Origin: an uncultured Opitutaceae bacterium
Lineage (GTDB): Bacteria; Verrucomicrobiota; Verrucomicrobiia; Opitutales; Opitutaceae
Direction: 5' to 3'
Length of the DNA: 44,359 nucleotides
Assembly (NCBI GenBank): GCA_903887455.1
Contig: CAISPT010000057.1
Coordinates: 1-44,359 of the forward strand
Of the stretch, positions 18,165-36,273 are shown piece by piece. Below the pieces are notes generated by a model that had not been told where the DNA came from, searched no databases, and saw only the letters and a list, made by a program, of their open reading frames with translations. The position numbers were made by a program, and so were the translations under genes. The first letter of the stretch is position 1. Every line of letters starts with the position of its first letter.

Positions 18165-19310
18165 ATGAAACTCCTCGCCATCCCCGCCCTGGCACTCGTC
18201 GCCGCCTCGTCCGCAGGACTCCGCGCGCAGCCCGACCCGAACTGGATCGACCACGACCGCGAGCGGCCGATGGCCACGGTCATCGATCCCGGGACCGCCA
18301 GCACCCAGGACCAGCCGGGAAGGCCGCCAAGCGACGCGGTCGTCCTCTTCGACGGAAAGGACATATCCCCATGGGTCGCGTTGGACGGCAGCCCCACCAA
18401 GTGGATCGTCCACGACGGAGCCCTCGAGTGCGTCCCGGGCAGCGGCTACGTCCGCACCCTCGAGTCCTTCGGTGACTGCCAGCTCCACATCGAGTGGGCG
18501 GCTCCCAACCCGCCGCACGGGGTGAGCCAGGACCGCGGCAACAGCGGCGTGTTCTTCGGGTATGACCGCTACGAGTGCCAAGTCCTCGACTCCTACCAGA
18601 GCAAGACCTACGCCGACGGCGCCGCGGCCGCAATCTACGGGCAGTACCCCCCGCTGGTGAACGCAACCCGCCCGCCCGGGCAGTGGCAGACTTACGACAT
18701 CATCTGGACGGCGCCCCGCTTTGACGCGGACGGAAAACTCATTTCCAAGGCCCGCGAGACAGTCATCCACAACGGCGTCCTCGTGCAGAACAACGTGGAG
18801 CTAACCGGCCCGACGGGCTGGATAAACCGGATACCGTACTCGGCCCATCCCGAGCGCCTTCCGATCGCCCTCCAGGACCACGGCCATCCCGTCCGCTACC
18901 GCAACGTGTGGGTGCGCGAGCTGGGCAACCCACGGCACAAGGAGTTCATGCTCCCCGAGGCGCTTCTCGCCTCCTACGCCGGTGTCTATGGAAACTCCAA
19001 GGGCACCGTGGCCGATGTGCGGCGCCTTCCCGACGGCCTGCTTTGCCTCAATTATGCGGACCGCACACTCGTGATGCACGCCGACTCGCCGACGCACTTC
19101 TACGCGCTTTCGACCGACGTGCAGTGCACCTTCGACTTTACGGACAAGTCCAAGGCCCTTCGGATCACCGTCGGAGAGGACGGCGAGGGGGCTAAATTTG
19201 AGAGGAAGGGAATCCCGGTCTCCCCCACCCCCGTGCCCCCCGCGGCCGAGGCGCCGGCGGCCGCCCCCGCTCCCGCAGCGGCGGCCCCGGTTCCGGCCCC
19301 GGCCCACTAG
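18165..19310 (+). CDS. secreted DUF1080 (3-keto-glycoside hydrolase-like) protein with C-terminal extension
   Basis: Exported protein of 381 residues with a signal peptide (MKLLAIPALALVAASSAGLRA, then QPDPNW). Residues about 60-255 are a DUF1080 concanavalin-like sandwich: VVLFDGKDISPW, KWIVHDGALEC, DCQLHIEWAAP, RGNSGVFFGYDRYECQVLDSY and PIALQDHGHPVRYRNVWVREL. After that comes LLASYAGVYGNSKGTVADV, like a DUF3471-type domain, and a Pro/Ala-rich tail. DUF1080 proteins are linked to cleavage of 3-keto-glycosides; the actual substrate cannot be read here. The start at 18165 has the CACCCCATGAAA context. Its TAG shares a CTAG with the convergent outer-membrane gene. Confidence 0.85.
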   Translation: MKLLAIPALALVAASSAGLRAQPDPNWIDHDRERPMATVIDPGTASTQDQPGRPPSDAVVLFDGKDISPWVALDGSPTKWIVHDGALECVPGSGYVRTLESFGDCQLHIEWAAPNPPHGVSQDRGNSGVFFGYDRYECQVLDSYQSKTYADGAAAAIYGQYPPLVNATRPPGQWQTYDIIWTAPRFDADGKLISKARETVIHNGVLVQNNVELTGPTGWINRIPYSAHPERLPIALQDHGHPVRYRNVWVRELGNPRHKEFMLPEALLASYAGVYGNSKGTVADVRRLPDGLLCLNYADRTLVMHADSPTHFYALSTDVQCTFDFTDKSKALRITVGEDGEGAKFERKGIPVSPTPVPPAAEAPAAAPAPAAAAPVPAPAH

Positions 19311-20308
19311 TACATATAACTGACACTCACCCGGAAGAGCGCCTTGGAAACAAGCTGGTCTCCGGTACAGCGCTGGTAGAGGGGCAGCTCGACGTCCGCG
19401 TAGACCTTCAAGGGGTGGACGTCCAGCTCGAGGCCCGGCGCGGCCAGGACCCTCGAGTACCCTGAGGCGACCGGATCGGCCGAGTTGGCCCCGGAGTCCC
19501 TGCCCCTCACCGAAAGCTTGATCTGCCCTACCGGGGCGATGCCAAGGCGCCCGATCCTGAGGCCCGTGTAATAGGCCCCGACCGAGAGGTCCCCCTCTAT
19601 CCCCGGGCGGTACTGGACCTGGGTGAGGACCGGCAAGTCGACAAGCGCCTGCACGAAGCCGCTCCAGGAATCGCCGAGACTGACGCGGTTGAAGCCACCG
19701 ACTAGCAGGTCGGTGCTACCGCTGCCGATCTCGGTGTCGCGGTCGATGTCCCCGAACGCATCCTCTTTGGTATAGCTCCCTGTGGGGAGCTTCAGGCCGA
19801 AGGTGATGCCGGTTGAAAGATCAGACGAGAACCCCGTATAGATACCCTCGAGGCGCACGTCACCGAAGCCGCTAAAGCTGACGTCAACGATGTCGCTGCC
19901 CGACGCCCCTCCGGTGGTCTCGAAATGCCTCGACTCATAGGGCAGCTCCAGGCGAAGGCCCCAGGTGCGGTTGAACATCTGCTGGTAGCCCAGTGTGTAC
20001 CAGCTGGTCCTGATGTCCTTGTCTTTGTTATTGTCGGCGGGCGCTTTCGAGGAGCCGCTCCAATTCTGGTTCTGGTCCTGGTAGTCGTAGTCGAAGAAGG
20101 CCTCCACGCCGGGCTGCGTGGGGATCATCGAGCTCGTGCCGACCTCGTAGATGCCGCAGCCGCAGGCGCAGGCCCGGGCGTCGCGGGGCAGGACTAGGGC
20201 GAGTGAAAGAAGCAGGCAGGAGAAGGCCTCCCGCGGCCGGGCCCTGGTCAGGCCGGCGATGCGATGAATGGGGGCCGAAAGGCCCTTAATGAAAGAAGAG
20301 AAATCCAT
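19307..20308 (-). CDS. outer-membrane beta-barrel protein with N-terminal CACGCG motif
   Basis: A 333-residue predicted outer-membrane barrel. The N-terminus has a long basic region and hydrophobic signal (FSCLLLSLALVLPRDARA), directly followed by CACGCG, three closely spaced cysteines in a Gly-rich turn that could bind a soft metal. The rest shows alternating aromatic and polar strands (FFDYDYQDQNQNWSG, GLRLELPYESRHF, SGFGDVRLEGIYTGF, GITFGLKLPTGSYT) and ends in SVSYMY, an outer-membrane aromatic terminus. It resembles transporter or phenol-type barrels with unknown cargo. It lies downstream of a small cysteine-motif protein gene on the same strand, suggesting a metal-linked envelope pair. 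Its stop overlaps the convergent DUF1080 stop by 4 nt. Confidence 0.75.
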   Translation of the reverse strand: MDFSSFIKGLSAPIHRIAGLTRARPREAFSCLLLSLALVLPRDARACACGCGIYEVGTSSMIPTQPGVEAFFDYDYQDQNQNWSGSSKAPADNNKDKDIRTSWYTLGYQQMFNRTWGLRLELPYESRHFETTGGASGSDIVDVSFSGFGDVRLEGIYTGFSSDLSTGITFGLKLPTGSYTKEDAFGDIDRDTEIGSGSTDLLVGGFNRVSLGDSWSGFVQALVDLPVLTQVQYRPGIEGDLSVGAYYTGLRIGRLGIAPVGQIKLSVRGRDSGANSADPVASGYSRVLAAPGLELDVHPLKVYADVELPLYQRCTGDQLVSKALFRVSVSYMY

Positions 20309-20470: not shown

Positions 20471-20878
20471 CTAGGCCGCCAGGCCGGGCGCGACTCTCGG
20501 GGGCGGCACGGGGACCTCGCCCGCTCTCTGAGCGGCGCGCAGTTCCATATCGGCCGGCCACGCCTCCGCGGGCCTCGGCACCACCGAGGCTGTCGCGGGG
20601 TCGAAAATCATGACCATCTTGTCGGTGCCCGCAGAGGGCACGGCCGTACCGTGGCTGCTCGACGCCTCCCTGGCCTTGTTGACAGCGCCGCAAATCTCGC
20701 ACGGCTTGGCCGGGTCGAACGTCTCCTTCGCTGCCGCCACGATGGACTCGGATTTCACGTATCCGGCGAACATGCGGCCCCAAGCAAACACCTGGGCCAC
20801 GTCCAGCATCGCCCCGCTGGCGCAAAGCCAAGCAAACAGGAGGGAAAGGGAGGCCAGCCGACGGTTCATTTCGAGCAT
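20471..20878 (-). CDS. small exported protein with CEIC motif
   Basis: A protein of about 135 residues starting MLEMNRRLASLSLLFAW, with one hydrophobic signal or anchor segment (ASLSLLFAWLCASGAML). The exported part carries AWGRMFAGYVKSES and PAKPCEICGAVNKA, a CxxC pair suited to metal or redox chemistry, then a Lys/Met segment and a Pro-rich tail. I do not recognise the family with certainty; similar short CxxC envelope proteins occur next to copper-handling genes. An ATG at 20869 is an alternative start; upstream to 20962 the frame is open but has no signal-peptide logic. The neighbour downstream is the CACGCG barrel protein, and the pair is likely one transcript despite a 162-bp gap. Confidence 0.65.
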   Translation of the reverse strand: MLEMNRRLASLSLLFAWLCASGAMLDVAQVFAWGRMFAGYVKSESIVAAAKETFDPAKPCEICGAVNKAREASSSHGTAVPSAGTDKMVMIFDPATASVVPRPAEAWPADMELRAAQRAGEVPVPPPRVAPGLAA

Positions 20879-21064
20879 GGAAAACTCAAGGGAGCCAGGA
20901 GGGTTGGCAAGCCATTCAACTCTGCCAGCCGGTTTTTGAAAAGCGGCGCCCGAACTGGACAATCCGCCGCCGAGGCGCCAGCATGGCCTTCCCTGGCTGC
21001 CACCCCAGATTCAGCCGCCAGGGTGAACCTCATCCCCCGACGGCGCGGACCCCAACCAACCGAC

Positions 21065-21967
21065 ATGGACACCCCCATCCTATCACGACGCGAGGCCATC
21101 AAGAGGGCCGCAATTGCCGGACTAGCGGCACCATTCCTGGGGGCCCTCGAAGGCATGGGCGCCGGGGAGCCGGCCGCCGCGCCGGCCCCATCGGGCCCGC
21201 TCACGTTGGGCCTAGCCGGGTACTCCCTCAGGAAATATTCGACGGACGATGCGATCCGGCTCCTCCAGGAGCTGAAGATCACCTCGGTGGCCGTCTTCAA
21301 GGTTCATGTCCCGATCCAGATCAGCACGCCCGAGGTCTGCCGGGACATGGCGAAGAAGTTCCGCGATGCCGGAATCTCGATCGCAGCCACAGGCGTTGTC
21401 TACCTTTCGAAGAACGAGGGCGACATGCGCCGGGCCTTCGACTGCGGAAAGGCCGCGGGACTGACGACGATGACGGCATCTTACGCAAAGCCGCCAGACC
21501 ATGAGGCCCTTGCCCTCACGGAGCGCTTCGCAAGGGAATACGACATGAGGATCGCGTTCCACAACCACGGGCCGGAGGACGCGATATTCCCCTCGCCCTA
21601 CGACGTCTGGAATGCAGTTGCCCCCTACGACGAGCGCCTCGGGCTGTGCATCGACATTGGCCATTCCTACCGCGCCGGCGTCGACCCGACCGAGGCAATC
21701 CTCAAGTGCAAGTCCCGGCTCTACGACGTCCATGTGAAGGACACCCTCGCTGACCGCGGGGCGAAGAAGGACATCCCTGTCGACATGGGCTTTGGCAAAC
21801 TCGACCTGCCCTCGGTCGTGGCGGCCCTCCTGAAGATCGGCTACTCCCACCAGGTCGGGCTGGAGTACGAGGTCGAGGTGGCGGATGCCCTTCCCGGTAT
21901 TGCCCAGTCCTTCGGCTACCTGCGGGGGCTGGCGGCGGCCCTGGGATCGAAGGGGACCGCCGCGTGA
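21065..21967 (+). CDS. Tat-exported xylose isomerase-like TIM-barrel sugar isomerase/epimerase
   Basis: A 300-residue protein with a twin-arginine-like leader (SRREAIKRAAIAGLAAPFLGAL) and a TIM-barrel of the AP endonuclease 2/sugar phosphate isomerase-epimerase family. Metal-site segments are IAFHNHGPE, LCIDIGHSYRAG, YDVHVKDT and VGLEYEVE, giving the usual Glu/Asp/His/Glu set. The export signal means it acts in the periplasm, so its substrate is probably an unphosphorylated sugar. ATG 21065 begins the Tat leader, although the frame is open further upstream. Its stop overlaps the start of the DUF1080 gene (GTGA). With that gene and the Gfo/Idh gene it forms a tightly coupled unit, inferred to act on 3-keto-sugars. 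Confidence 0.85.
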   Translation: MDTPILSRREAIKRAAIAGLAAPFLGALEGMGAGEPAAAPAPSGPLTLGLAGYSLRKYSTDDAIRLLQELKITSVAVFKVHVPIQISTPEVCRDMAKKFRDAGISIAATGVVYLSKNEGDMRRAFDCGKAAGLTTMTASYAKPPDHEALALTERFAREYDMRIAFHNHGPEDAIFPSPYDVWNAVAPYDERLGLCIDIGHSYRAGVDPTEAILKCKSRLYDVHVKDTLADRGAKKDIPVDMGFGKLDLPSVVAALLKIGYSHQVGLEYEVEVADALPGIAQSFGYLRGLAAALGSKGTAA

Positions 21968-22740
21968 GAGGACCCCTCCGCCTCGCCTGCGCCGCCGCGT
22001 TCGCCGGAGCCGCGGGTTTCCTCTTTGCCGAGGAAGGGCCGTCAAACACCCTCTCTGCGCAGGAGGCGGGCGCCGGCTGGAGGCTCCTTTGGGACGGCGC
22101 CTCTTCCCAGGGATGGAGGAGCGTCAGCGGGCCGTCGTTTCCGGCAGCCGGCTGGCGGATGAAGGACGGCGTTCTCTCGGTCGAGCCCTCGGAGGGACAC
22201 GGCGGGGACATCATCACCATCGACCGCTACTCCGACTTCGAGCTCAGCGTGGACTTCCGGATCACGCCCGGCTGCAACAGCGGGATAAAGATATTCGTGG
22301 ACCCAGAGCGCAACCGGGTCGCGGGAGCCTCCATTGGGCTCGAGTACCAGATCCTGGATGACGCGACCAACCCCGACGCGAGAATGGGGAGGGACGGCAA
22401 CCGGACGCTCGGGTCCCTCTACGACCTCTATCCCCCGTCGGCCGACAAGCATCCCAATCCGATTGGCAACTGGAACACCGCGCTCATCGTCTCGAGTGGG
22501 CCCCATGTCGAGCACTGGCTTAACGGCCGCAAGATACTCGAGTACACCCGATTCACGCCGGGCTTCAGGGAAAGGGTCCAAGCGAGCAAATTCCGTGTCG
22601 TCCCCGGCTTCGGCGAACTCCAGGATGGCCACATCCTCCTCCAAGACCACGGAGACCAAGTTTTCTTTCGAAACCTCAAGATACGCATCCTCAAGGGCCA
22701 TCCCGTGACAGCCCAAGCTCCCCAACCCCAACTCCCATGA
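21964..22740 (+). CDS. exported DUF1080 (3-keto-glycoside hydrolase-like) protein
   Basis: A 258-residue protein with a signal peptide (LACAAAFAGAAGFLFA, then EEGPSN) and one DUF1080 sandwich: WRLLWDGASSQGWRS, GWRMKDGVLSVEP, YSDFELSVDFRITPGCNSGIKIF, LEYQILDD, GNWNTALIVSSGPHVEHWLNGRKILEY and GHILLQDHGDQVFFRNLKIR. The family is linked to cleavage of 3-oxidised glycosides. It starts with GTG overlapping the previous TGA and ends in ATGA overlapping the next gene, so three genes are made in step. It lacks the C-terminal extension of the DUF1080 protein at 18165. Confidence 0.87.
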   Translation: MRGPLRLACAAAFAGAAGFLFAEEGPSNTLSAQEAGAGWRLLWDGASSQGWRSVSGPSFPAAGWRMKDGVLSVEPSEGHGGDIITIDRYSDFELSVDFRITPGCNSGIKIFVDPERNRVAGASIGLEYQILDDATNPDARMGRDGNRTLGSLYDLYPPSADKHPNPIGNWNTALIVSSGPHVEHWLNGRKILEYTRFTPGFRERVQASKFRVVPGFGELQDGHILLQDHGDQVFFRNLKIRILKGHPVTAQAPQPQLP

Positions 22741-24068
22741 ATCCCCTCTTCGGCCGCCGAGAATTCCTCACCAAGACTGCCCTGGCCGGGGCCGCGCTTG
22801 CCTCTATGCCCGCGTGGGTCCGCGCCGGCACCCCGGGCTCCAACAATCGCCTCCGCATCGCGGTCATCGGCTCGAACAATCGTGGCCTTGACCACATCGA
22901 AGCCCTTTCCGGGATTGAAGGCGTGGAGCTCGCGTACGTCTGCGACGTGGAAGACGGCGCCCTGGCCAAGGGAATGAAGAAGGCCTCACTGTTCCCTGGG
23001 ATGGCACCCAAGGCCGAGAAGGATTTCAGGCGCATCCTCGACGACAAGTCGATCGACGCGATTACGGTGGCGGCACCCGACCACTGGCACACGCCGATGG
23101 CGATCATGGCCCTCGCCGCGGGCAAGCATGTCTACGTGGAGAAGCCCTGCAGCCAGAATCCGCACGAGGGCGAACTCCTGCTCAAGGCCATAGCCCGGTA
23201 CGGGCGCAAGGTGCAGATGGGCAACCAGCGCCGCTCGTTCCCGAACATGAAGGTGGCGATAAAGGAGATCCGGGACGGCGTGATCGGTAAGGCGTACTTC
23301 GCCCGCGCCTGGTACGACAACAACCGCGGCTCGATAGGCCACGGCACGGAGGTCCCGGTTCCGCCGGGCCTGGACTACGAGCTCTGGCAGGGGCCGGCCC
23401 CGCGCAGGCCCTACCGGAGCAACCTGATCCACTACAACTGGCACTGGTTCTGGCACTGGGGAACGGGCGAAGCCCTCAACAACGGCACCCACGAGATCGA
23501 CGTGTGCCGCTGGGCTCTTGGGGTCGATTTCGCTACGCGCGTCACCTCCAACGGGGGACGGTACCGCTTCAAGGACGACTGGGAGACGCCGGACACCCAG
23601 GTGATCACCTGGGATTTCGGCGGGGAGAAGTCGATCTCATGGGAAGGCCGCAGCTGCAACGGGTTCCCGAGCGAAGGCTACTCCCGAGGGGCCATGATCT
23701 ACGGGACCGACGGGACCGCGTTCCTGGAGGGCAACAACTACACCGTTTTCGACAAGAAGGGCCAGAAGGTGAAGTCGACCGCGGAGAAGGCCGAGGGCGA
23801 CCCCACAAACACGCAGAGCGCGAACGGGATCCGTCTAGACCGGATGCATGTGAAGAACTTCGTCGACGCCGTCACGACCGGCGCGGCGCTCACCTCCCCC
23901 ATCGAGGAAGGTCACAGGAGCACCACCATGCTCCACCTGGGAAACATCTCGCAGCGGGTGGGCCGGACCCTGGCGTGCAACCCCGACGACGGCCACGTCA
24001 TCGGCGACGACGGCGCCATGAAGCTCTGGCAGCGCGAGTACGAGCCGGGCTGGCAGCCCGCGGTCTGA
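22737..24068 (+). CDS. Tat-exported Gfo/Idh/MocA oxidoreductase
   Basis: A 443-residue NAD(P)-dependent sugar oxidoreductase with a strong Tat leader (GRREFLTKTALAGAALASMPAWVRA). A Rossmann fold follows (LRIAVIGSNNRGLDH, AYVCDVED), then VAAPDHWHTPMAIMAL, the catalytic-Lys motif HVYVEKPCSQNP and the later THEIDVCRWALG dyad. Exported Gfo/Idh enzymes usually carry tightly bound cofactor, as glucose-fructose oxidoreductase does. In this cluster the likely role is oxidation of the sugar C3 hydroxyl to a 3-keto-glycoside, for DUF1080 cleavage and later re-reduction. It overlaps the DUF1080 gene by ATGA and is followed after 23 nt by a mutarotase gene. Confidence 0.88.
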   Translation: MNPLFGRREFLTKTALAGAALASMPAWVRAGTPGSNNRLRIAVIGSNNRGLDHIEALSGIEGVELAYVCDVEDGALAKGMKKASLFPGMAPKAEKDFRRILDDKSIDAITVAAPDHWHTPMAIMALAAGKHVYVEKPCSQNPHEGELLLKAIARYGRKVQMGNQRRSFPNMKVAIKEIRDGVIGKAYFARAWYDNNRGSIGHGTEVPVPPGLDYELWQGPAPRRPYRSNLIHYNWHWFWHWGTGEALNNGTHEIDVCRWALGVDFATRVTSNGGRYRFKDDWETPDTQVITWDFGGEKSISWEGRSCNGFPSEGYSRGAMIYGTDGTAFLEGNNYTVFDKKGQKVKSTAEKAEGDPTNTQSANGIRLDRMHVKNFVDAVTTGAALTSPIEEGHRSTTMLHLGNISQRVGRTLACNPDDGHVIGDDGAMKLWQREYEPGWQPAV

Positions 24069-24091: not shown

Positions 24092-24481
24092 ATGCTGCGC
24101 ACAGGAATCCTGAACCCGAGCCTCCTGGCCCTGCTCGCTAGGATCCGCCACACGAACACACTGGTGATCGCCGACCGGGGATTCCCGTCCTGGCCGGGCC
24201 TCGAGACCGTGGACCTGTCGGTTGTGGACGACCTGCCGACGGTCGCCCAGGTCCTCTGCGCGATTAGGCCCAACTTCGGCATCGGCCGCGTGTTCGCCGC
24301 CCAGGAGCTCATGTCGGCGAACAGCCCGGATAAGCTCGCCCCGCACTTGGCTGCGCTTGCGGGCCTTACGCTGACCATGGAGGCGCACACCGAATTCAAG
24401 AAGCGGGTGCCCTCTGCTGTCGGCCTCATCCGCACGGGCGACACCACCCAGTACGCCAACCTCATCCTCGAGTCGGCCTGA
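24092..24481 (+). CDS. RbsD/FucU family sugar pyranase/mutarotase
   Basis: A 129-residue cytoplasmic protein that would interconvert sugar ring anomers or pyranose and furanose forms. Family marks are the N-terminal MLRTGILNPSLLALLARIRHTNTLVIADRGFP with its His and Asp, and the C-terminal FKKRVPSAVGLIRTGDTTQYANLILESA with Arg, Thr and Tyr of the ligand site. FucU acts on L-fucose and RbsD on D-ribose; the adjacent aldo/keto reductase and fucose isomerase-like genes favour a fucose or rhamnose role. ATG 24092 is chosen because it begins the conserved N-terminus; the frame is open far upstream inside the Gfo/Idh gene. It lies 23 nt after that gene and 20 nt before the aldo/keto reductase. Confidence 0.87.
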   Translation: MLRTGILNPSLLALLARIRHTNTLVIADRGFPSWPGLETVDLSVVDDLPTVAQVLCAIRPNFGIGRVFAAQELMSANSPDKLAPHLAALAGLTLTMEAHTEFKKRVPSAVGLIRTGDTTQYANLILESA

Positions 24482-24501
24482 CCGCCGCACGGGACGCACG
24501 C

Positions 24502-25437
24502 ATGCACTACCGCACGCTGGGATCAACGGGGGTCAGGGTCTCGGCTCTGGCCTACGGGGGCTCCTCCCTCGGCTCCGCTTTCCGGGATGTCGACGAGGCC
24601 GAGGGCATACGCTCGGTCCACGTGGCGCTCGACAACGGGATCAACCTGATCGACACGGCGCCGTACTACGGGGCAACCAAGGCGGAGGCGGTGCTCGGAC
24701 GGGCCCTCAGGGGGATCCGGCGAGACCGGTACGTGCTCGCCACGAAGGTCGCCCGCTACGGCCCAAACCTCGCCGACTTTGACTTCTCGGCCGAGCGCGT
24801 GACGCGCAGCGTGGATGAGAGCCTCGCCCGGCTCGGGGTCGACCACGTGGACTTCATCCAGGTCCACGACATGGAGTTCGGCGACCTCCGGCAGATCGTC
24901 TCCGAGACCATCCCCGCCCTAAGAAAGGTCCAGGCCGCGGGCAAGGCGCGCTTCGTGGGCATATCGTGCCTGCCGGTCCGCCTCTTCAGGCAGGTGCTCG
25001 ACGAGTCCCCCGTGGACCAGATCCAAAGCTACTGCCACTATTGCCTGAACGACACGGCGCTCGGGGACCTGCTTCCCTACCTCAGGGAGAAGGGCGTCGG
25101 GATCTTCAACTCGGCCCCGTTGGCGATGCGCCTGCTCAGCGACGACGGCCCCCCGGGCTGGCACCCGGCGCCGGCGGGGCTCCGCGCGAAGTGCGCCGAG
25201 GCCGCGGCCCTGTGTCGGGCTCGGGGCTCGGACATCGGAAAACTCGCCCTCCAGTACGCGCTCCTAAATCCCGACATCCACACCCATGTCGTCGGGACCG
25301 CGAGCCCGCAACGGGTGCTAAAGAACATCGAGGACGCCTCGACGCCCCCGGACCCCGAACTGCTCCGCGACGTGCTCCGGGTGCTGGAGCCCGTCCACAA
25401 CGTGACCTGGCCCTCGGGCCGCCCCGAGAACGGCTAG
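24502..25437 (+). CDS. aldo/keto reductase, L-galactose/L-fucose dehydrogenase-like
   Basis: A 311-residue cytoplasmic NAD(P)-dependent oxidoreductase of the AKR barrel. The active-site set is Asp and Tyr in INLIDTAPYYG, Lys in VLATKVARYG and His in VDFIQVHDMEFG. Long stretches match what I recall of plant L-galactose dehydrogenase: DFSAERVTRSVDESLARL, LRQIVSETIPALRKVQ, SYCHYCLNDTALGDLLPYL, GVGIFNSAPLAMRLL and IGKLALQYALLN. L-galactose and L-fucose share configuration, so an L-fucose dehydrogenase role (sugar to lactone) is likely beside the mutarotase. It has the CTAG stop and is followed by the operator region of the DeoR gene. Confidence 0.85.
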   Translation: MHYRTLGSTGVRVSALAYGGSSLGSAFRDVDEAEGIRSVHVALDNGINLIDTAPYYGATKAEAVLGRALRGIRRDRYVLATKVARYGPNLADFDFSAERVTRSVDESLARLGVDHVDFIQVHDMEFGDLRQIVSETIPALRKVQAAGKARFVGISCLPVRLFRQVLDESPVDQIQSYCHYCLNDTALGDLLPYLREKGVGIFNSAPLAMRLLSDDGPPGWHPAPAGLRAKCAEAAALCRARGSDIGKLALQYALLNPDIHTHVVGTASPQRVLKNIEDASTPPDPELLRDVLRVLEPVHNVTWPSGRPENG

Positions 25438-25466
25438 CCTTGCGCCCGAATGGCGCACCCTTCCGG

Positions 25467-25499
25467 GGCGTTTATGATTGCTTTCGATCATATAACGCC
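25467..25499 (+). promoter_or_regulatory. candidate DeoR-family operator/promoter before the deoxysugar operon
   Basis: An inverted repeat of 12-bp arms: GGCGTT-TATGAT (25467-25478) and ATCATA-T-AACGCC (25487-25499), with one bulged base and an 8-bp spacer TGCTTTCG. The arms pair perfectly apart from the bulge. It is AT-rich against the GC-rich background, overlaps a possible -10 (CATATAAC), and lies 14 bp before the ATG of the DeoR regulator. The central TTTCG is similar to sites of DeoR-family repressors. It probably autoregulates the regulator and the operon 25514-32333. Confidence 0.65.
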
Positions 25500-25513
25500 T
25501 TCGCTCTTCCCCC

Positions 25514-26290
25514 ATGAGAGTCGCCGCCCATGTGGTCGAGGCACGGCGGGAGTCGCTGTCGCGCCTCCTTGAGCGGCACCGCTACCTCTCCGTGCCCGAG
25601 CTCGCCCGCCAGCTCGGGGTGTCGGAGCCAACCGCCCGCAGGGATCTGTCCGTCCTCGCCGGCCAGAAGCGGATCACACGCACCCACGGCGGGGCCATGC
25701 CCGAGATCGAGGTCACCTTCGCGTCACTGCGGGAGCGTGCGCGCGTGGCGCGGCAGGCGAAGGCCCGGATTGCGCGGCGCGCCCACGGATTCCTGGAGGC
25801 TGGAAGCTGCTGCTACCTTGACGCGGGCACGACGATGCTGGCGCTCGCGCTCCAGCTGAGGGCACACCCCGTGCACGGGATCACCGTGCTGACGAACAAC
25901 CTGGCGGCCGCCAACGCGCTGAGTGGCTCAGACCAGGTTGACCTCAGGCTGACCGGCGGGAGGTGGCTCAGCCGCCAGGCCTTCCTTTTCGGCCCGGAGG
26001 CAAGCCGCGCGATAGACCTGTGGGACATCGACACCGCGTTCTTCTCGGCCGAGGGGATGGACGCCGAGGGCCTCTGGAACACCCAGCCCGAGGTGGTTGA
26101 GATGCAGCGCAAGGTGATAGCCAAGGCTAGGCGGGTCGTCTTCTGCATCGACTCCGGCAAACTGGGGCACTCAACCCCGAACCGGCTCACCACCTGGGAC
26201 AAGGTCCAGCACCTGGTGAGCGACGCCTCCCCCTCACTTCTTGCTTCCCGTGGGATCCCCCTTCGAAGGCAAGCCATCCTTTCCGCCTGA
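25514..26290 (+). CDS. DeoR-family transcriptional regulator
   Basis: A 258-residue sugar-responsive repressor. The N-terminal winged helix-turn-helix (about 15-62) has RLLERHRYLSVPELARQLGVSEPTARRDLSVLAGQKRITRTHGGA, the family DNA-binding signature. The C-terminal sensor domain is isomerase-like, with CCYLDAGTTMLAL, VLTNNLAAANAL, LRLTGGRWL, AFFSAEGMDAEGLWN and VFCIDSGKLG, and binds a phosphorylated sugar in this family. The gene is the first of the fucose/rhamnose operon, 13 nt before the isomerase gene, and sits behind the inverted repeat at 25467-25499. The ATG at 25514 follows CTTCCCCC. Confidence 0.92.
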   Translation: MRVAAHVVEARRESLSRLLERHRYLSVPELARQLGVSEPTARRDLSVLAGQKRITRTHGGAMPEIEVTFASLRERARVARQAKARIARRAHGFLEAGSCCYLDAGTTMLALALQLRAHPVHGITVLTNNLAAANALSGSDQVDLRLTGGRWLSRQAFLFGPEASRAIDLWDIDTAFFSAEGMDAEGLWNTQPEVVEMQRKVIAKARRVVFCIDSGKLGHSTPNRLTTWDKVQHLVSDASPSLLASRGIPLRRQAILSA

Positions 26291-26302
26291 CCCCTGCCCC
26301 CC

Positions 26303-27928
26303 ATGAAGAAGAAACAAAAGACGATCCTGCTCGTGGCCAACGGTGACCTTCGCCCCTCGGCCAACAAGACCTGCTGGCCCGCACAGCAGACGATGGAGGC
26401 GGCCCTCACCGCGGCGCTGGCCGGCCTTGGCTACGCCCTTAAGCGCGCCCACCCCTACAAGCCCAAGCAGGGCCACGGCTTCATCGGCTCCCAGAAGGAA
26501 GGGATGGAGGTGTTTGCCCGGATCGACCGAGGTACGCCGCTCATCGTGGCCGAGGCCGTCTGGCAGTACTCGCACCACCTGCTCCACGGGCTCATCTCGC
26601 ACGAGGCCCCCGTCCTCACCGTGGCCAACTGGAGCGGGACCTGGCCGGGGCTGGTCGGAATGCTCAACCTGAACGGCTCGCTCACGAAGGCCGGGGTCCC
26701 CTACTCGACTCTCTGGAGCGAGGACTTCACGGACCGGTACTTCCTAGACGGGCTCTCGAGCTGGCTCGGCACGGGCAAGGTCAGGCACAGGACCCGGCAC
26801 GTGCAGCCGCTGGCTCGTGCGAAAGTTCCGGTCCGGGCCGCCGCCGTGGCCCGAAGGATCGCGGCCGACCTGCGCCTCCGAAAATCCATCATGGGCATCT
26901 TCGACGAGGGCTGCATGGGCATGTACAACGCCGTGATCCCCGACGAGCTGCTATTTCAGACGGGGGTCTACAAGGAGCGGCTGTCGCAGTCGGCGCTCTA
27001 CTACGCCACGACCCAGGTGCCCGACTCCGAGGCCCGCTCCGTGTATTCATGGCTCCTGGCCAAGGGCATGACGTTCCACTTGGGCGCAAACGAGGAAACG
27101 GACCTCACCGAGCGCCAGGTCCTCCTGCAGTGCAAGATGTACGTCGCCGCCCTCCGCATCGCCGACGACTTCGGGTGCGAGAGCATCGGGATCCAGTACC
27201 AGCAGGGGCTCAAGGACCTGCTGCCGGCAAGCGACCTGGTCGAGGGTATCCTTAACAACGCCGACCGGCCACCAGTGAGGAACGCCGCAGGCCGGGTCAT
27301 CCTCCCAGGCAGGCCCCTCACCCATTTCAACGAGGTCGACGAATGCGCGGGCCTAGACGGCGTGCTGACGAACCGCGTGCACACGGCCCTGGGTCAGCCC
27401 GTCGAGAGCACCCTCCACGACCTTCGCTGGGGCGACTGGGACAGGAGCGGCACGACCGGGGAGTACGTCTGGGTCTTCCTGATCTCCGGGAGCGCGCCGC
27501 CGGCCCACCACGTCGGAGGCTACCGGGGCACCGACTCGATGAGGCAGCCGCCGATGTACTTCCGCCTGGGCGGCGGCACCGTCAGGGGCGTGGCCAGGCC
27601 GGGAGAGATCGTGTGGAGCCGGGTCTTTGTCGAGGGCGGGAAGCTAAAGATGGACCTCGGGAGGGCCAAGGCGATCTCCCTTCCCGAAGCGGAGACCCAG
27701 CGCCGCTGGCGGGAGACGACCGTGCAGTGGCCGATCATGCACGCGGTGACCTACGGCGTCACCCGCGACCAGATGATGGCGCGCCACAAGGCCAACCACA
27801 TCCAGGTCGCCTATGCTAGGAGCGCCAGGGAAGCGGACCTGGCGCTGTACGCTAAGGCCGCCCTTGCGGCCGAGCTCGGGCTCGAGGTGAGCCTGTGCGG
27901 CACGAAAGCCGACGGGAGCCCATTCTGA
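26303..27928 (+). CDS. L-fucose isomerase-like (FucI/AraA superfamily) isomerase
   Basis: A 541-residue cytoplasmic aldose-ketose isomerase, best matched to the L-fucose isomerase-like family: N-terminal [84 protein letters not shown] and [11 protein letters not shown]. Candidate metal ligands are E344, D346 and E347 in FNEVDEC and a late His in HKANH (495-499); I did not align them to E. coli E337, D361 and H528. In this operon it precedes RhaE and RhaB-type enzymes, so it may isomerise L-rhamnose and/or L-fucose. The start has the C-rich leader (GCCCCCC-ATGAAG) and lies 13 nt after deoR. Confidence 0.8.
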
Positions 27929-27929
27929 A

Positions 27930-28706
27930 GTGAACCCTACACCTTCCCGCCCCGCCTCGGTGAGGCGCCAGCTCCTCTCCCTCTCGCACGACCTTGGCCG
28001 CGAGGACCGGGGGCTTGCGATCCTCGGGGAGGGCAACACCTCGGCGCGGCTCGCCAGCGCGACCTTCCTGGTCAAGGCGAGCGGCTTCAACATGGAGACC
28101 CTCACCTCTGGAGGCCTGACGGAGTGCCGCTTCGACGCGCTCCTCGGGCTCCTCGAGAACGGGAAGGCGGACGACGCCGAGGTGAACCGGGTGCTCCTGG
28201 CTTCCCGCGTGAGCGCCTCCTCAAGGAAGCCTTCCGTGGAGGCCATGTTCCACGCGTACCTCCTCTCGCTCCCCGGCATCAACTTCGTCGGCCACACCCA
28301 CCCTGTCGCCGTGAACGGTGTCCTTTGCTCCGACGGAGCGGCTTCGCTTGCCCACCGCAGGCTTTTTCCCGACGACATCGTGTGCTGCGGGGAGGACTCC
28401 GTGCTCGTCCCGTACACCGACCCGGGCCTGAGCCTGGCCCGGGCGATCCGCAGCGAGACCGAGCGTTTCGTCCGGAGGCACGGCTCGGCGCCACGGGTGA
28501 TCCTCCTACAGAACCACGGGCTGATCGCCCTGGGCGCGACCCCGCCTGCCGTATTGGCCGCCACCTTGATGGCGGAAAAGGCCGCCCGGATCCTGACAGC
28601 CGCCTCCTCCTTGGGTCGCAGCCCGCGCTTCCTCACAGCCAGGCAGGTCCGCCGGATCGGCGGCCGCCCCGACGAGCACCACCGCCAGCGCATCCTCGGC
28701 CTCTAG
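27930..28706 (+). CDS. class II aldolase (FucA/AraD family)
   Basis: A 258-residue zinc aldolase/epimerase-like protein. It shows LAILGEGNTSAR and FLVKASG for phosphate binding, KPSVEAMFHAYLL with the catalytic Glu, NFVGHTHPVAVNG with two zinc His, and ILLQNHGLIALG with a further zinc His. A FucA-type aldolase would cleave the ketose 1-phosphate to DHAP and L-lactaldehyde. The next gene already carries an aldolase domain, so this one may handle a different sugar or act as a paralogue. It starts with GTG one base after the isomerase stop and ends with CTAG. Confidence 0.85.
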   Translation: MNPTPSRPASVRRQLLSLSHDLGREDRGLAILGEGNTSARLASATFLVKASGFNMETLTSGGLTECRFDALLGLLENGKADDAEVNRVLLASRVSASSRKPSVEAMFHAYLLSLPGINFVGHTHPVAVNGVLCSDGAASLAHRRLFPDDIVCCGEDSVLVPYTDPGLSLARAIRSETERFVRRHGSAPRVILLQNHGLIALGATPPAVLAATLMAEKAARILTAASSLGRSPRFLTARQVRRIGGRPDEHHRQRILGL

Positions 28707-28716
28707 CCCCCTCTCC

Positions 28717-30909
28717 ATGAAACCCTACCGCCATGTGAACAACCTCTGGGACGACAAGAAGGCCGCCGCGCTCGACCCGGTCGGCCGCCTCGTCTACCGC
28801 TCAAACCTCCTCGGGAGCGACCAGCGCATCACCAATACCGGGGGTGGAAACACCTCCTCGAAGATCACCGAGCGGGATCCGCTGACCGGGCAACCCGTCG
28901 AGGTCCTCTGGGTCAAGGGCTCCGGAGGTGACCTAAGGACCAGCACCCGCGAGAACTTCTCTTCCCTCTACCAGTCAAAGCTACTCGGCCTGCAGCCCCT
29001 CTACGCCGCGAGGACGGACAAGGGCCTCAAGTCCCGGGCCGAGGACGACATGGTGGGCATGTTCCCCCACACGACCTTCAACCTGAACCCCAGGGCCCCC
29101 TCCATCGACACGCCGCTCCACAGCTTCCTGCCGGGCAGGCACGTGGACCACATGCACCCCAACGCGGTGATCGCCGTCGCGGCGACGGCGGACTGCGAGC
29201 GCCTCACCCGGGAAATCTTCGGGGGGAGGATGGCCTACGTTCCGTGGATGAGGCCCGGCTTCGAGCTCGGCCTGGCCATGCAGGAAATCGCCCATGCGCA
29301 GCCGGATGTCCGCGCGATCATGATGGGTCAGCACGGCTTCATATCCTGGGACGACGACGACAAGGAGTGCTACACGGCGACACTCGGCTTCATCGAGGAG
29401 GCCGCCGAATACATTGAGGCGAAGTACCAGGCCAAGGGCGGCGACAACGCGGCATTCGGGGGCGCCAAGCACCGCTCCCTGGAGCCCGGCGCACGCCGGG
29501 CGGTCCTCGCGGCCATCCTTCCCTGGCTCCGGGGGAAGGTCTCGTCGGAGCGGCGCCTGATTGGCACGGTGCAGGACGACGAAAAGACCCTCCGGTTCGT
29601 CAATTCCAGCGACGCCGCGCGCTTGGCCGAGCTCGGGACCAGCTGTCCCGACCACTTCCTGAGGACCAAGATCAAGCCGTTGTACGTCGCCTGGGACCCC
29701 CAGTCCGGCGACACGGCCTCGCTCCGGGCCGCAATCTTCAAGGGGATCGAGGGCTACCGCGCGGACTACGCGGCCTACTACGCCAAATGCAGGCGACCGG
29801 ACTCGCCCGCCATGCGGGATCCGAACCCCACCGTGGTGCTCATCCCCGGGATCGGCATGGTCACGTGGGGCAAGGACAAGTCGGAGAGCCGGGTCACCGC
29901 CGAGTTCTACACCTGCGCGATCGAGGTCATGAGGGGCGCCGAGGCGATCGACCGCTACATCGCCCTACCCCAGCAGGAGGCCTTCGACATCGAGTACTGG
30001 CTCCTCGAGGAGGCGAAGCTCCGGCGCATGCCGCCGGAGAAGGAGCTAGCCCGGCAGGTGGCGATTGTCGTCGGCGCCGGTTCGGGCATTGGACGCGAGA
30101 CCGCCCTTCGCCTCGTTCGCGAGGGCACCCACGTCGTTTGCGTGGACCTGAACGAGGGCGCGGCGCAATCGACGGCGAAGGAGATCACCGACAAGCACGG
30201 ACTTGGCATCGGGGTCGGCGGGAGCGGGATCTCGAGCTGCGGCCCGGCCCTGGGTCTGGCCGCGAACGTCACCGACCGCTCGAGCATCCGTGCGATGCTG
30301 GACCAGGTCGCGCTCGCGTACGGCGGCTTTGACCACATCTGCGTGACTGCGGGGATATTCGTTCCGAGCGACACGACAGGCCACATCCCCGACGAGAAAT
30401 GGGCGGCCACCTTCGCGATCAACGTCACGGGCAGCTACCTGGTGGCCGACGAGGCCGCCAAGACGTGGTCCGACCAGGGCCTAAAGGGGAGCCTGGTGCT
30501 CACGACCTCGGCGAACGCCGCCGTGGCCAAGAAGGGCTCGCTCGCCTACGACACCTCGAAGGCCGCGGCGAACCACCTGGTGCGCGAGCTGGCGATCGAG
30601 CTGGCGCCACTCGTGCGCGTGAACGGGGTGGCTCCAGCCACGGTGGTGCAGGGCTCCGCGATGTTCCCACGGGACCGTGTGATCGGTTCCCTGGCCAAGT
30701 ACAAGATCCCCTACCGCGACGACGAGCCGACGGAGTCGCTGGTGTCCAAGCTCGCGCAGTTTTACGCCGACAGGACGCTCACCAGGTCGCCGATCACCCC
30801 CGCCGACCAGGCAGAGGCCTACTTCCTCCTCGTCTCAGGAAGGCTCTCCAAGACCACCGGGCAGATAATCACTGTCGACGGGGGCCTCCACGAAGCCTTT
30901 CTTCGCTAG
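28717..30909 (+). CDS. rhaE: bifunctional rhamnulose-1-phosphate aldolase / short-chain dehydrogenase (RhaE type)
   Basis: A 730-residue fusion. Residues 1-430 are a class II aldolase: RITNTGGGNTSSKI, LWVKGSGGDL, DHMHPNAVIA with paired zinc His and MGQHGFISWDDDD. From about 445 follows a short-chain dehydrogenase: VAIVVGAGSGIGRETALR, CVTAGIFVPSD, TTSANAAVAKKG, YDTSK catalytic Tyr/Lys and TVDGGLHEAFLR. The layout equals the Bacillus RhaEW type, where the aldolase gives DHAP and L-lactaldehyde and the dehydrogenase oxidises the lactaldehyde. This makes a microcompartment unnecessary. ATG 28717 follows CCCCTCTCC and is 10 nt after the previous stop; 2 nt separate its stop from the kinase GTG. 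Confidence 0.93.
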   Translation: MKPYRHVNNLWDDKKAAALDPVGRLVYRSNLLGSDQRITNTGGGNTSSKITERDPLTGQPVEVLWVKGSGGDLRTSTRENFSSLYQSKLLGLQPLYAARTDKGLKSRAEDDMVGMFPHTTFNLNPRAPSIDTPLHSFLPGRHVDHMHPNAVIAVAATADCERLTREIFGGRMAYVPWMRPGFELGLAMQEIAHAQPDVRAIMMGQHGFISWDDDDKECYTATLGFIEEAAEYIEAKYQAKGGDNAAFGGAKHRSLEPGARRAVLAAILPWLRGKVSSERRLIGTVQDDEKTLRFVNSSDAARLAELGTSCPDHFLRTKIKPLYVAWDPQSGDTASLRAAIFKGIEGYRADYAAYYAKCRRPDSPAMRDPNPTVVLIPGIGMVTWGKDKSESRVTAEFYTCAIEVMRGAEAIDRYIALPQQEAFDIEYWLLEEAKLRRMPPEKELARQVAIVVGAGSGIGRETALRLVREGTHVVCVDLNEGAAQSTAKEITDKHGLGIGVGGSGISSCGPALGLAANVTDRSSIRAMLDQVALAYGGFDHICVTAGIFVPSDTTGHIPDEKWAATFAINVTGSYLVADEAAKTWSDQGLKGSLVLTTSANAAVAKKGSLAYDTSKAAANHLVRELAIELAPLVRVNGVAPATVVQGSAMFPRDRVIGSLAKYKIPYRDDEPTESLVSKLAQFYADRTLTRSPITPADQAEAYFLLVSGRLSKTTGQIITVDGGLHEAFLR

Positions 30910-30911
30910 GC

Positions 30912-32333
30912 GTGAAAGCCGTCCACTGCGCAGCCGTAGACCTGGGGGCAAGTTCCGGCCGGGTGATCGTGGGCTCGTGGGTACGGGGCCGCCTTTCACT
31001 TAGAGAGGTTCACCGCTTCCCCGTCCAGTTCAGGTCGCTCGGCGACGAGGACTACTGGGACCTCCCCACCCTCTGGTCGGAGGTCCGTGCGGGTCTCCTT
31101 AAGGCCCGGCTCGAGTTTCCTGGGCTTGCCTCGGTCGGCGTCGACACCTGGGGCGTCGACTACGCGCTCGTCGACCGCGTGGGTCGCCTCGTCTACCCCG
31201 TGCACGCCTACCGCGACCGCCGGACCCAGCCCGGGCTCAAGCGCCTGGCCAGGACGGGCCTCGGCAGGATCTACGCTGAGACGGGGGTACCGAACGTGTT
31301 TTACAACACGAGCCTCCAGCTCGAGGCGATGCTGCGCAATCATCCCCGTGTTCGGGAGACCGCCGACCGGTGTCTCTTCCTTCCCGACTACTTCAATTTC
31401 CTCCTGTCCGGCCGGATGGAGAACGAGGTTTCGATCTCCAGCACCTCCCAGCTCCTCGGCCTGTCGCGGCGGACCTGGTCGGGGGCCGCGCTGCGCCGCT
31501 TTGGAATTCCCGCCCGCTGGTTCAGGAGGCCGGTCCCCGCCGGCACACGCCTTGGGAAGGTGGCGTCGATTCCGGAACTGAAAGGAATGAGCGTCATCGC
31601 GGTCCCGGGGCACGACACGGCCTGCGCCTACGACGCCATGCCCGCCGACCCCTCGGGCACCGACCTCTTTATCAGCTCCGGAACCTGGTCCCTTGTCGGG
31701 TTCGAGAGCGCCAGGCCGCTAGTCGGGGTGGAGGCCCTCCGGGCACGCATCTCAAACGAGCGTACGGGGCGCGGCGGCTTCCGGCCGCTTACCAACGTGA
31801 TCGGCCTGTGGCTGCTTGAGCGCACACTCGTGGACCTGGGGTGCCGACCCGAGTCTGGTGCCGATTGGGAGGCGCTCCTCTCCAGGGCGGGCCGCCTTCC
31901 GGCCCCCCGACGCCTGTTGGATGTTACCTCGCCCGCCTTCGCCAACCCGCCCTCGATGCGCCGCGAGGTCGACAAGCAGCTACGGAGCCGGGGCGAGGCG
32001 CCCCCTCGAGACCCTGCGGGCTACGCGCGGCTCATCTGCGACTCCCTGGGGGCAGGCCATGCCGACGCCGCGCGAACCTTCGAGAGGCTTTCCGGCAAGG
32101 TCTTTCGGCGAATCCTCATCGTGGGCGGCGGCTCCAAGAACCCGCTCCTCTGCCAGGCCACGGCCGACCAGTCCTCCCTGCCTGTCGTCTCCTTTCAGAT
32201 CGAGGGGACGGCCGTGGGGAACATCGCCAGCCAACTCGTGGCGCATGGCGCCGTGGCCGACCTCTCGACCTTCCGGCAGCAGTTTGGCAGCAGCCTCAAG
32301 CAGGTGCTCTACACGCCCCGCAGGGAGGCCTAG
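30912..32333 (+). CDS. rhaB: rhamnulokinase-like FGGY kinase
   Basis: A 473-residue sugar kinase of the FGGY family that would phosphorylate L-rhamnulose or L-fuculose at O1. It shows the N-terminal phosphate motif AVDLGASSGRVIVG, SVGVDTWGVDYALVD, VFYNTSLQLEAML, PGHDTACAYDA, the ATPase loop FISSGTWSLVGFE and RILIVGGGSKNPLLCQATAD. These match RhaB rather than FucK by memory. I chose the GTG at 30912, two bases after the rhaE stop; the frame is open upstream inside rhaE. Its TAG shares a CTAG with the convergent transporter gene at 32330-32333. Confidence 0.9.
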   Translation: MKAVHCAAVDLGASSGRVIVGSWVRGRLSLREVHRFPVQFRSLGDEDYWDLPTLWSEVRAGLLKARLEFPGLASVGVDTWGVDYALVDRVGRLVYPVHAYRDRRTQPGLKRLARTGLGRIYAETGVPNVFYNTSLQLEAMLRNHPRVRETADRCLFLPDYFNFLLSGRMENEVSISSTSQLLGLSRRTWSGAALRRFGIPARWFRRPVPAGTRLGKVASIPELKGMSVIAVPGHDTACAYDAMPADPSGTDLFISSGTWSLVGFESARPLVGVEALRARISNERTGRGGFRPLTNVIGLWLLERTLVDLGCRPESGADWEALLSRAGRLPAPRRLLDVTSPAFANPPSMRREVDKQLRSRGEAPPRDPAGYARLICDSLGAGHADAARTFERLSGKVFRRILIVGGGSKNPLLCQATADQSSLPVVSFQIEGTAVGNIASQLVAHGAVADLSTFRQQFGSSLKQVLYTPRREA

Positions 32334-33556
32334 GTTGGCAGTTCCTGGCCCCGGGTCTCGGGGGCCAGCCAGATGAGGACCATTCCGAGGCCATAAACCA
32401 GGGTGACCACCGCACCCGCCCGGGCGAAGCTGCCCTCGAAGTGCCTCATCAGGGCGCTCATCTGCAGCGCCCCGACGGCGGCGATGAGCCGCCCGGCGTT
32501 GTAGGCGAACCCCTGGCCCGTCGCGCGCACCCGAGTCGGGAAGAGCTCGGGCAGGTAGAGGGGCGCCCAGCCAAAAAACGCCCCGGTCGAGGCCCCCACG
32601 AGGAAGGTCCACGCGAGGAAGGCCCCGCCGTAGCTTCCGACCGTGCGGAACAGCACCGAGCAGGACACGAGGGAGAGCAGGCAGATCGTGAAATAGGTCC
32701 AGCGCCGGCCGGTCCGCACGAGACCAATGCTCAGCAGGCAACCTGCGGCCGACCCGAGACCGATCAGGATCTGGGTGTAGGCCTTGGCCGCCGGCTGCGT
32801 CCCCCCCGTCAGCTGGTCCGCCCACGACGGCAGCCACTGCACCGATCCCCAAGTCCCGACCAGCATGATTCCGCAGAAGGCCGACGCCAGGAGCGTGCGG
32901 CGGACAAGACCCGGGGCGAAGACGTCGCGCAGGAGGTGTTTGTGGTCGGAAGCAGAGAGCTTCTCCCAGCGCTCGGATTCGGGGACGAAGCGAAGGATCA
33001 AGAACGTGAGGACCGCGGGGGCGGCGCCGACCAGGGCGACCCAGCGCCACGAGGACTGCGTGACCGCAAACCTGAGGCCGATGAACCCCATGAGCGCGAT
33101 GCCAAGGTTGCCTGCTGCTCCGATAACCCCGGAGAGCATGGGCCTTAACCTTCCCGGCCAAACCTCCATCACCAGGGCCACGCCGAGCGACCACTCCCCT
33201 CCCATGCCAAGCGCGGCAAAGAAGCGTGCCACCGTCAGCTGCTCGGGTGTCCTGGCAAAATAGGTGACGCCGGTGAACACGGAGTAGCACAGGATGCTCA
33301 GCGACATGGCCCTCACCCGGCCCAGCCGGTCGCCCAGCCACCCGAAGAGGAGGCCGCCGAGGGCAGCCCCGATCAGGTAGGCCGCGGTAACGATACCGAT
33401 CCAGTTGCCGACGAAGTGGGTGTCCGCCGCCATGCCGAGCGATCCTTGCATCTGCTGGAGCGCGGGGCCCGCGATCAGCGGGAAGAGCCCCATTTCTAGG
33501 CCATCGAACATCCACCCGAAGAACGCGGCCAGGAGAACGGTCAGGTTACGCCGCAT
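32330..33556 (-). CDS. MFS sugar/sugar-acid transporter
   Basis: A 408-residue inner-membrane permease with 12 predicted helices, two six-helix halves and an MFS loop (GWLGDRLGRVRAMSL) between helices 2 and 3. Other marks are MRRNLTVLLAAFFGWMFDGLEMGLFPL at the N-terminus and GWAPLYLPELFPTRVRATGQGFAYNAGR in the second half. The overall pattern resembles the sialate/aromatic acid/sugar-acid symporter group. With the KDPG aldolase, SDR and GH88 neighbours it may import a uronate or a deoxysugar. It is convergent with the rhamnulokinase gene, sharing the CTAG stop. Confidence 0.88.
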   Translation of the reverse strand: MRRNLTVLLAAFFGWMFDGLEMGLFPLIAGPALQQMQGSLGMAADTHFVGNWIGIVTAAYLIGAALGGLLFGWLGDRLGRVRAMSLSILCYSVFTGVTYFARTPEQLTVARFFAALGMGGEWSLGVALVMEVWPGRLRPMLSGVIGAAGNLGIALMGFIGLRFAVTQSSWRWVALVGAAPAVLTFLILRFVPESERWEKLSASDHKHLLRDVFAPGLVRRTLLASAFCGIMLVGTWGSVQWLPSWADQLTGGTQPAAKAYTQILIGLGSAAGCLLSIGLVRTGRRWTYFTICLLSLVSCSVLFRTVGSYGGAFLAWTFLVGASTGAFFGWAPLYLPELFPTRVRATGQGFAYNAGRLIAAVGALQMSALMRHFEGSFARAGAVVTLVYGLGMVLIWLAPETRGQELPT

Positions 33557-33594
33557 CGGGGTTGCCTCGGTGTCGGTTCTTGCCGGCTCCGCCC

Positions 33595-34239
33595 CTAGGG
33601 CTTCGCCACACGGTTCGCCGCCGCCACGAACTCTCTGGCGCGCGCGGTGACCGCTGGCCAGTCGCGGGATTTGAGCGCTGCGGAGGAGACAAGCGCGCTT
33701 CCGGCCGCGGTCGCGAAGGCCCCGTTCCTCAGGAACTCGCCCACCGTCTCAGGGGTCACCCCGCCGGTCGGCATGATCTCGATCCTTGGGAAGGGAGCCT
33801 TGACCGACTTGATGTAGGCGGGCCCGAAGAACTCGGCGGGAAATATCTTAACGACGTCGGCGCCGAGTTCCCACGCAGTGTAGATCTCGGTGGGCGTCAG
33901 CGCACCGCAGAGGACCGCCACACCGGCCTCACGGCACGCCGCGATGACTTCCGGCCTGACCGCCGGGGTCACGATGAACTTTGCCCCCGCCGCGATCCCC
34001 TTCCGGGCGGTATCCGCGTCGAGCACGGTGCCGAGGCCAAGGAGGACTTGCGGCAGCTCCTTCGCCACCCGGGCGCACATGTCGAGCGCCCCGGGTGTCG
34101 TCATGGTGAGCTCGAGGCTGTCCAGCCCACCCTCAGCCAGCGCCCTGGCGCAGTCGAGAAGGCTGTCGGAGCTGTCGGCCCGGATGAGGGCTATCACCTT
34201 GCCCGCCTTGAGACGGGCCAGCACGTCGTTCTTGTTCAT
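33595..34239 (-). CDS. eda: KDPG/KHG aldolase (Eda)
   Basis: A 214-residue class I aldolase that would split 2-keto-3-deoxy-6-phosphogluconate to pyruvate and glyceraldehyde 3-phosphate, or a related keto-deoxy acid. Catalytic Glu is E43 (LELTMTT), the phosphate/pyruvate loop is GLGTVLD, and the Schiff-base Lys is K131 (DVVKIFPAEFFG), followed by MPTGGV. This closes a uronate or oxidative sugar route. It lies 6 nt after the SDR stop on the same strand and upstream of the transporter, so the minus-strand genes 38509 to 32330 could form one operon. Confidence 0.93.
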   Translation of the reverse strand: MNKNDVLARLKAGKVIALIRADSSDSLLDCARALAEGGLDSLELTMTTPGALDMCARVAKELPQVLLGLGTVLDADTARKGIAAGAKFIVTPAVRPEVIAACREAGVAVLCGALTPTEIYTAWELGADVVKIFPAEFFGPAYIKSVKAPFPRIEIMPTGGVTPETVGEFLRNGAFATAAGSALVSSAALKSRDWPAVTARAREFVAAANRVAKP

Positions 34240-34245
34240 AAGGGT

Positions 34246-35022: not shown

Positions 35023-35070
35023 GGGGAATGGAGCGTCGGGGCCGTTGCTGTTGCCGGCCGCAGGTGAGAA

Positions 35071-35088
35071 GACCCGGTAAACCGGGTC
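35071..35088. promoter_or_regulatory. perfect 18-bp inverted repeat between Gfo/Idh and SDR genes
   Basis: GACCCGGT-AA-ACCGGGTC is an exact inverted repeat of 8-bp arms with a 2-bp centre, in the 87-bp gap between two same-strand genes. It could be a regulator operator for the SDR-aldolase-transporter part, or an RNA hairpin that lowers read-through. No T-run follows on the minus strand. Confidence 0.5.
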
Positions 35089-35109
35089 CCCTCAAGCCGG
35101 TATCTCGAG

Positions 35110-36258: not shown

Positions 36259-36273
36259 TCGTCTGGGGAAAAT

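Follow-up and report, generated by a model that had tools for sequence, protein, structure and literature searches.

Three overlapping genes in a 44,359-nucleotide stretch of DNA from an uncultured Opitutaceae bacterium (the window) probably encode an exported pathway that would cleave glycosides by oxidation, elimination, hydration, and reduction (rough probability, 0.7); of this pathway, we infer the catalytic steps, the cofactor retention, and the substrate. In the proposed scheme, a Tat-exported Gfo/Idh oxidoreductase, folded with NAD bound, would oxidise the glycone at C3, and a Sec-exported DUF1080 lyase would then eliminate the aglycone, leaving a 2-hydroxy-3-keto-glycal. A Tat-exported TIM-barrel metalloenzyme would hydrate this product to a 3-keto sugar, which the Gfo/Idh enzyme would reduce to the free sugar with regeneration of its cofactor, making the process redox-neutral and placing it outside the cytoplasm. 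We favour this keto-glycoside pathway because of the best match of the Gfo/Idh protein (AL3), the IolE-like metal set of the TIM barrel, and the existence of TIM–DUF1080 fusions. Conversely, the low family score of the Gfo/Idh protein (137 bits), its modest identity to AL3 (about 20 to 26%), its Asn248, the placement of the DUF1080 protein in a branch with no activity that we could find (4jqt/3hbk), the rank of AtHYD (42nd) among the matches of the TIM barrel, and the absence of the DUF1080 gene from three congeners count against it. If correct, this reading would add uncultured Opitutaceae to the bacteria that break down glycans by a non-hydrolytic route, one that has been recognised recently.

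The three genes lie head-to-tail on the plus strand and overlap by four bases at each junction, GTGA between the TIM and DUF1080 genes and ATGA between the DUF1080 and Gfo/Idh genes (Table 1), as the sequence-only reading had reported and as the sequence itself confirmed. Pfam assigned the TIM protein to AP_endonuc_2 (PF01261; 67 bits, above the cut-off), the middle protein to 3keto-disac_hyd (PF06439; 154.5 bits against a cut-off of 26.8), and the third to GFO_IDH_MocA (59 bits) and GFO_IDH_MocA_C2 (65.9 bits), both above their cut-offs. The second DUF1080 gene noted earlier, at 18165, was likewise verified (PF06439; 141 bits). Gfo/Idh and TIM families are abundant, with about 23 Gfo/Idh, 10 TIM, and 6 DUF1080 matches in the 3.34-Mb draft genome, as would suit a chance cluster of unrelated exported sugar-metabolism genes with no common pathway. 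By a rough estimate, however, random adjacency of three such genes has a probability of about 1e-4, so that their arrangement is not due to chance. This low expectation, together with linkage and fusions that recur elsewhere, disfavours chance placement; in view also of the translational overlaps, the genus-wide adjacency, and the Ignavibacteriae and Kiritimatiellae-type loci, we regard a chance cluster as extremely improbable.

Table 1. Coordinates of the module, its context in the window, and related genes in other loci
Feature	Location	Strand	Basis or remark
Tat-exported (predicted) xylose-isomerase-like TIM barrel; candidate 2-hydroxy-3-keto-glycal hydratase	window, 21065..21967	+	PF01261; nearest solved structures 3lmz, 3p6l
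Sec-exported (predicted) DUF1080 protein; candidate 3-keto-glycoside lyase	window, 21964..22740	+	PF06439; nearest 4jqt, 3hbk
Tat-exported (predicted) Gfo/Idh/MocA oxidoreductase; candidate glycoside 3-dehydrogenase	window, 22737..24068	+	Pfam; best match 8tdf/8tdh
Second Sec-exported (predicted) DUF1080 protein, 4qhz-like subfamily	window, 18165..19310	+	PF06439; 4qhz match; genus synteny
L-rhamnose-type operon, co-directional, downstream of module	window, 24092..32333	+	context, not core
GH27-like gene directly after TIM–Gfo/Idh, congener without middle DUF1080	L120:7525-9231
GH27-like gene directly after TIM–Gfo/Idh, congener without middle DUF1080	L123:11854-13584
DUF1080–TIM fusion	L020:5923-7428		Bacteroidia-type
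DUF1080–TIM fusion	L029:5914-7428		Bacteroidia-type
TIM–DUF1080 fusion	L043:5110-6720
TIM–DUF1080 fusion	L069:5164-6762
TIM–DUF1080 fusion	L187:643-2241
TIM–DUF1080 fusion	L190:337-2004
TIM–DUF1080 fusion	L191:331-2004
TIM–DUF1080 fusion	L196:136-2004

Twin-arginine motifs were found in both the TIM protein (SRREAIKRAAIAG; N-terminal start, MDTPILSRREAIKRAAIAG) and the Gfo/Idh protein (GRREFLTKTALAG; N-terminal start, MNPLFGRREFLTKTALAG), and the genome encodes TatC. Among the genus members whose N-termini were read, each of the nine TIM proteins and eight Gfo/Idh proteins kept the arginine pair, and the DUF1080 N-terminus was of the Sec type in all five orthologues. Residues R7, R8, and F10 of the Gfo/Idh protein were invariant in an alignment of 45 sequences from Verrucomicrobia, Bacteroidetes, Acidobacteria, and other groups; in a larger set of 60, R7 was present in 57 and R8 in 58. 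The earlier proposal that all three proteins carry export signals, of the Tat type on the TIM and Gfo/Idh proteins and of the Sec type on the DUF1080 protein, thus held on motif and conservation, which make predicted export of all three well supported. The further claim that the whole cleavage would be periplasmic agrees with these signals. The earlier interpretation as a whole was upheld in part; one qualification is that the make-up of the module varies, the middle DUF1080 gene being absent from three congeners. Glucose–fructose oxidoreductase is a Tat-exported enzyme, and by analogy it is plausible that the NAD cofactor is retained inside the exported Gfo/Idh protein. Conservation of the twin-arginine motif throughout this Gfo/Idh branch offers a testable answer to the question of how a periplasmic NAD enzyme acquires its cofactor.

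Both sequence comparison and a Foldseek search with the AlphaFold model (pLDDT 89) gave 8tdf/8tdh as the top match of the Gfo/Idh protein, at about 20 to 26% identity. According to their entry titles, these are structures of glucoside-3-dehydrogenase AL3, one of them with trehalose bound. The Rossmann domain is present, and K136 (the EKP lysine) and H252 (the active-site histidine) were invariant in the 45-sequence alignment. The lysine and histidine are common to this protein and AL3 of Alistipes sp., whereas in the DxxxH pair of AL3 only the histidine is kept, the Asp position being occupied by Asn248. Against the BT_2158 equivalog model (NF058561) the protein scored 137 bits, far below the cut-off of 750; judging from this score, it is related to that equivalog but lies outside its membership. 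Re-ranking with VIA-align did not separate AL3 and DgpA from the oxidoreductive sulfoquinovosidases and the NAD-dependent glycoside hydrolases; all had a Z of about 35-36 and an rmsd of 2.5-3.0 over 325-365 aligned residues. This tie near the top is what might be expected if the Gfo/Idh protein alone performed NAD-dependent redox cleavage of glycosides, in the style of GH109 or the oxidoreductive sulfoquinovosidases, with DUF1080 as a lectin-like binding or hydrolytic accessory; the citation of a Thermogutta DUF1080 protein as an endo-xanthanase/lichenase points the same way. Such a division of labour would, however, leave the TIM protein and the TIM–DUF1080 fusions unexplained, and the best sequence match is a dehydrogenase, AL3; we therefore consider it very unlikely.

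The middle DUF1080 protein was nearest to 4jqt and 3hbk, followed by a group including 8v31, 8rr2, 8tda, and 3osd. It retains the most conserved polar residues of the family: among 100 homologues N105, N187, and H229 were invariant and Y153 nearly so. Pfam names PF06439 3-keto-disaccharide hydrolase; we found no activity for the 4jqt/3hbk branch, and the portion of PMC9765024 available to us does not name catalytic positions for DUF1080. Since the middle protein belongs to this branch and the Gfo/Idh protein scores so far below the BT_2158 cut-off, a known activity is not simply transferable to the module.

The model of the TIM protein was nearest to 3lmz (Z 33.3; rmsd, 2.2; 248 residues). Its HxH-D-H-E set (H166, H168, D197, H223, and E267) is invariant and resembles that of IolE, suggesting that the protein may bind a metal. 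The best NCBIfam model was also myo-inosose dehydratase IolE, under its cut-off. IolE is a keto-polyol dehydratase that takes off water beside a keto group. The 2-hydroxy-3-keto-glucal hydratase AtHYD ranked only 42nd in the Foldseek list of the TIM protein, after many epimerases and at 12% identity.

Elsewhere, eight loci carry TIM and DUF1080 domains within one open reading frame, with either domain first (Table 1), and Pfam confirmed both domains in all four fusions tested. A Gfo/Idh gene adjoined the fused gene in all eight loci, the copy in L187 being truncated at the locus boundary. On an Ignavibacteriae contig (L016), the DUF1080, TIM, and Gfo/Idh genes are separate neighbours, and the same three-family set was also present in Kiritimatiellae-type loci. 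The candidate lyase–hydratase fusions make direct coupling of these two steps testable.

A neighbourhood survey, which the earlier reading had called for, upheld part of the expected gene order. TIM and Gfo/Idh orthologues adjoin in eight congeners (G002-G008 and G010), but the middle DUF1080 gene is kept in only five of them (G003, G006, G007, G008, and G010) and is missing from G002, G004, and G005. Relocation of the gene in these three genomes was rejected, as a search revealed no other close copy. In the TIM and Gfo/Idh tree, in which several nodes are weak, the DUF1080-less genomes did not group together (G005 pairs with G010; support, 94), and this scatter suggests that the middle gene may have been lost repeatedly. 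A Melibiase_2 (GH27-like) gene comes next after the TIM–Gfo/Idh pair in G002 and G005. The TIM and Gfo/Idh proteins could accordingly be a working pair that carries out C3 oxidation together with isomerisation, epimerisation, or hydration of the keto sugar, and that is served by a replaceable bond-cutting enzyme: the middle DUF1080 protein, the 18165 DUF1080 protein, or a conventional GH27-like enzyme. The persistence of the pair in G002, G004, and G005, the scatter of these genomes in the tree, the GH27-like genes, and the resemblance of the TIM folds to 3-epimerases all fit such an arrangement. We nevertheless judge it unlikely, since the fusions in other lineages argue for direct coupling of the TIM and DUF1080 proteins, and the 18165-type DUF1080 protein, encoded at the same locus in all three of these genomes, could supply the lyase.

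The 18165 protein retains the NSG, NG, and QDHG motifs, and genes of its type are syntenic with TIM–Gfo/Idh in five congeners. We assign this gene to the module because of a common neighbourhood consisting of a glyoxalase-family gene, the 18165-type DUF1080 gene, a gene for a CACGCG-motif protein, and the TIM gene. The CACGCG-motif protein (19307-20308) and a small protein (20471-20962), both encoded on the minus strand beside the module, had no Pfam match; their genes keep the same position in several congeners.

The exported oxidation–elimination–hydration–reduction pathway resembles systems already known. In Bacteroides thetaiotaomicron, BT2158 is a periplasmic glycoside 3-dehydrogenase required for disaccharide use, and BT2157 is labelled 3-ketotrehalose hydrolase. 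BT2157, BT2158, and their partners are jointly required for glucosinolate conversion in Bacteroides; deletion of BT2157 or BT2158 left growth on raffinose-family sugars unaffected, a result that is uninformative for the Opitutaceae locus. Like the Opitutaceae module, BT2156-BT2159, whose products we take to include a TIM barrel, encode the TIM, DUF1080, and Gfo/Idh families together for the periplasm. The Opitutaceae module differs in having one Gfo/Idh gene and in running in the reverse order; two of its proteins bear Tat signals, its BT_2158 family score is low, and its DUF1080 protein is of another subfamily. The redox-neutral scheme itself was reportedly described in 2024 for enzymes of gut Bacteroidota and Agrobacterium. 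The 3-keto-glycoside interpretation of the sequence-only reading remains the best explanation, but of a pathway already described and with the limit on transferring activity given above. On its sequence relationships, the module is a divergent branch of the BT2156-BT2159-type pathway with somewhat divergent subfamilies, and the kind of pathway is already known; the most useful new observations are that the candidate lyase and hydratase are fused in other loci, that the Tat motif of this dehydrogenase branch is invariant, and that the middle gene can be dispensed with.

In Agrobacterium tumefaciens, AtOGE converts a 3-keto-glucoside to a 2-hydroxy-3-keto-glycal by beta-elimination, according to the abstract of PMC10628242. 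AtOGE and the hydratase AtHYD (8ro4) perform elimination and then hydration, the same chemistry as that proposed for the module; AtHYD matches the TIM protein at the fold level only, and nothing that we found identifies AtOGE as a member of the DUF1080 family. For Caulobacter crescentus, the accessible part of the lactose pathway description proposes periplasmic 3-oxidation of lactose by LacABC followed by cleavage by a DUF1080 protein, and names no TIM partner. The dehydrogenase there is the membrane-bound LacABC, in contrast to the soluble exported Gfo/Idh protein of the Opitutaceae module.

Downstream of the module, the L-rhamnose-type operon begins with an RbsD/FucU gene, which starts 23 bases past the Gfo/Idh stop codon, and continues with genes for an aldo-keto reductase, DeoR, a FucI-like isomerase, a class II aldolase, a rhamnulose-1-phosphate aldolase/dehydrogenase (1102.7 bits against a cut-off of 634), and a rhamnulokinase-like kinase (under its cut-off). 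In a more far-reaching reading, the module would belong to a Tat-dependent branch of the pathway whose lyase and hydratase, fused in other phyla, work as a coupled unit; in the window lineage it would act on 6-deoxyhexosides, as an oxidative-eliminative rhamnosidase or fucosidase system that passes L-rhamnose-type sugars to this operon. We consider this combination rather improbable. Of the genomes with downstream sequence, the window genome and G006 (L117) alone have this junction between module and operon, a local juxtaposition, so that a rhamnose link would be tentative and confined to this lineage. Dedication of the module to L-rhamnose across the genus was rejected on the same ground; the FucI-like gene, present in 34 of 57 relatives, some of which have no close module TIM protein, also counts against it.

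Further along the window, on the minus strand (32330-37110), lie genes for an MFS transporter, a KDPG-type aldolase, an SDR protein, a second Gfo/Idh protein, and a second TIM barrel. No obvious export signals were seen in this cluster, which probably represents a cytoplasmic sugar-acid or keto-sugar pathway. Beside this second Gfo/TIM pair, also on the minus strand (37127-38863), is a gene for a 578-aa protein that had no Pfam or NCBIfam match and looks by eye like a carbohydrate-active enzyme.
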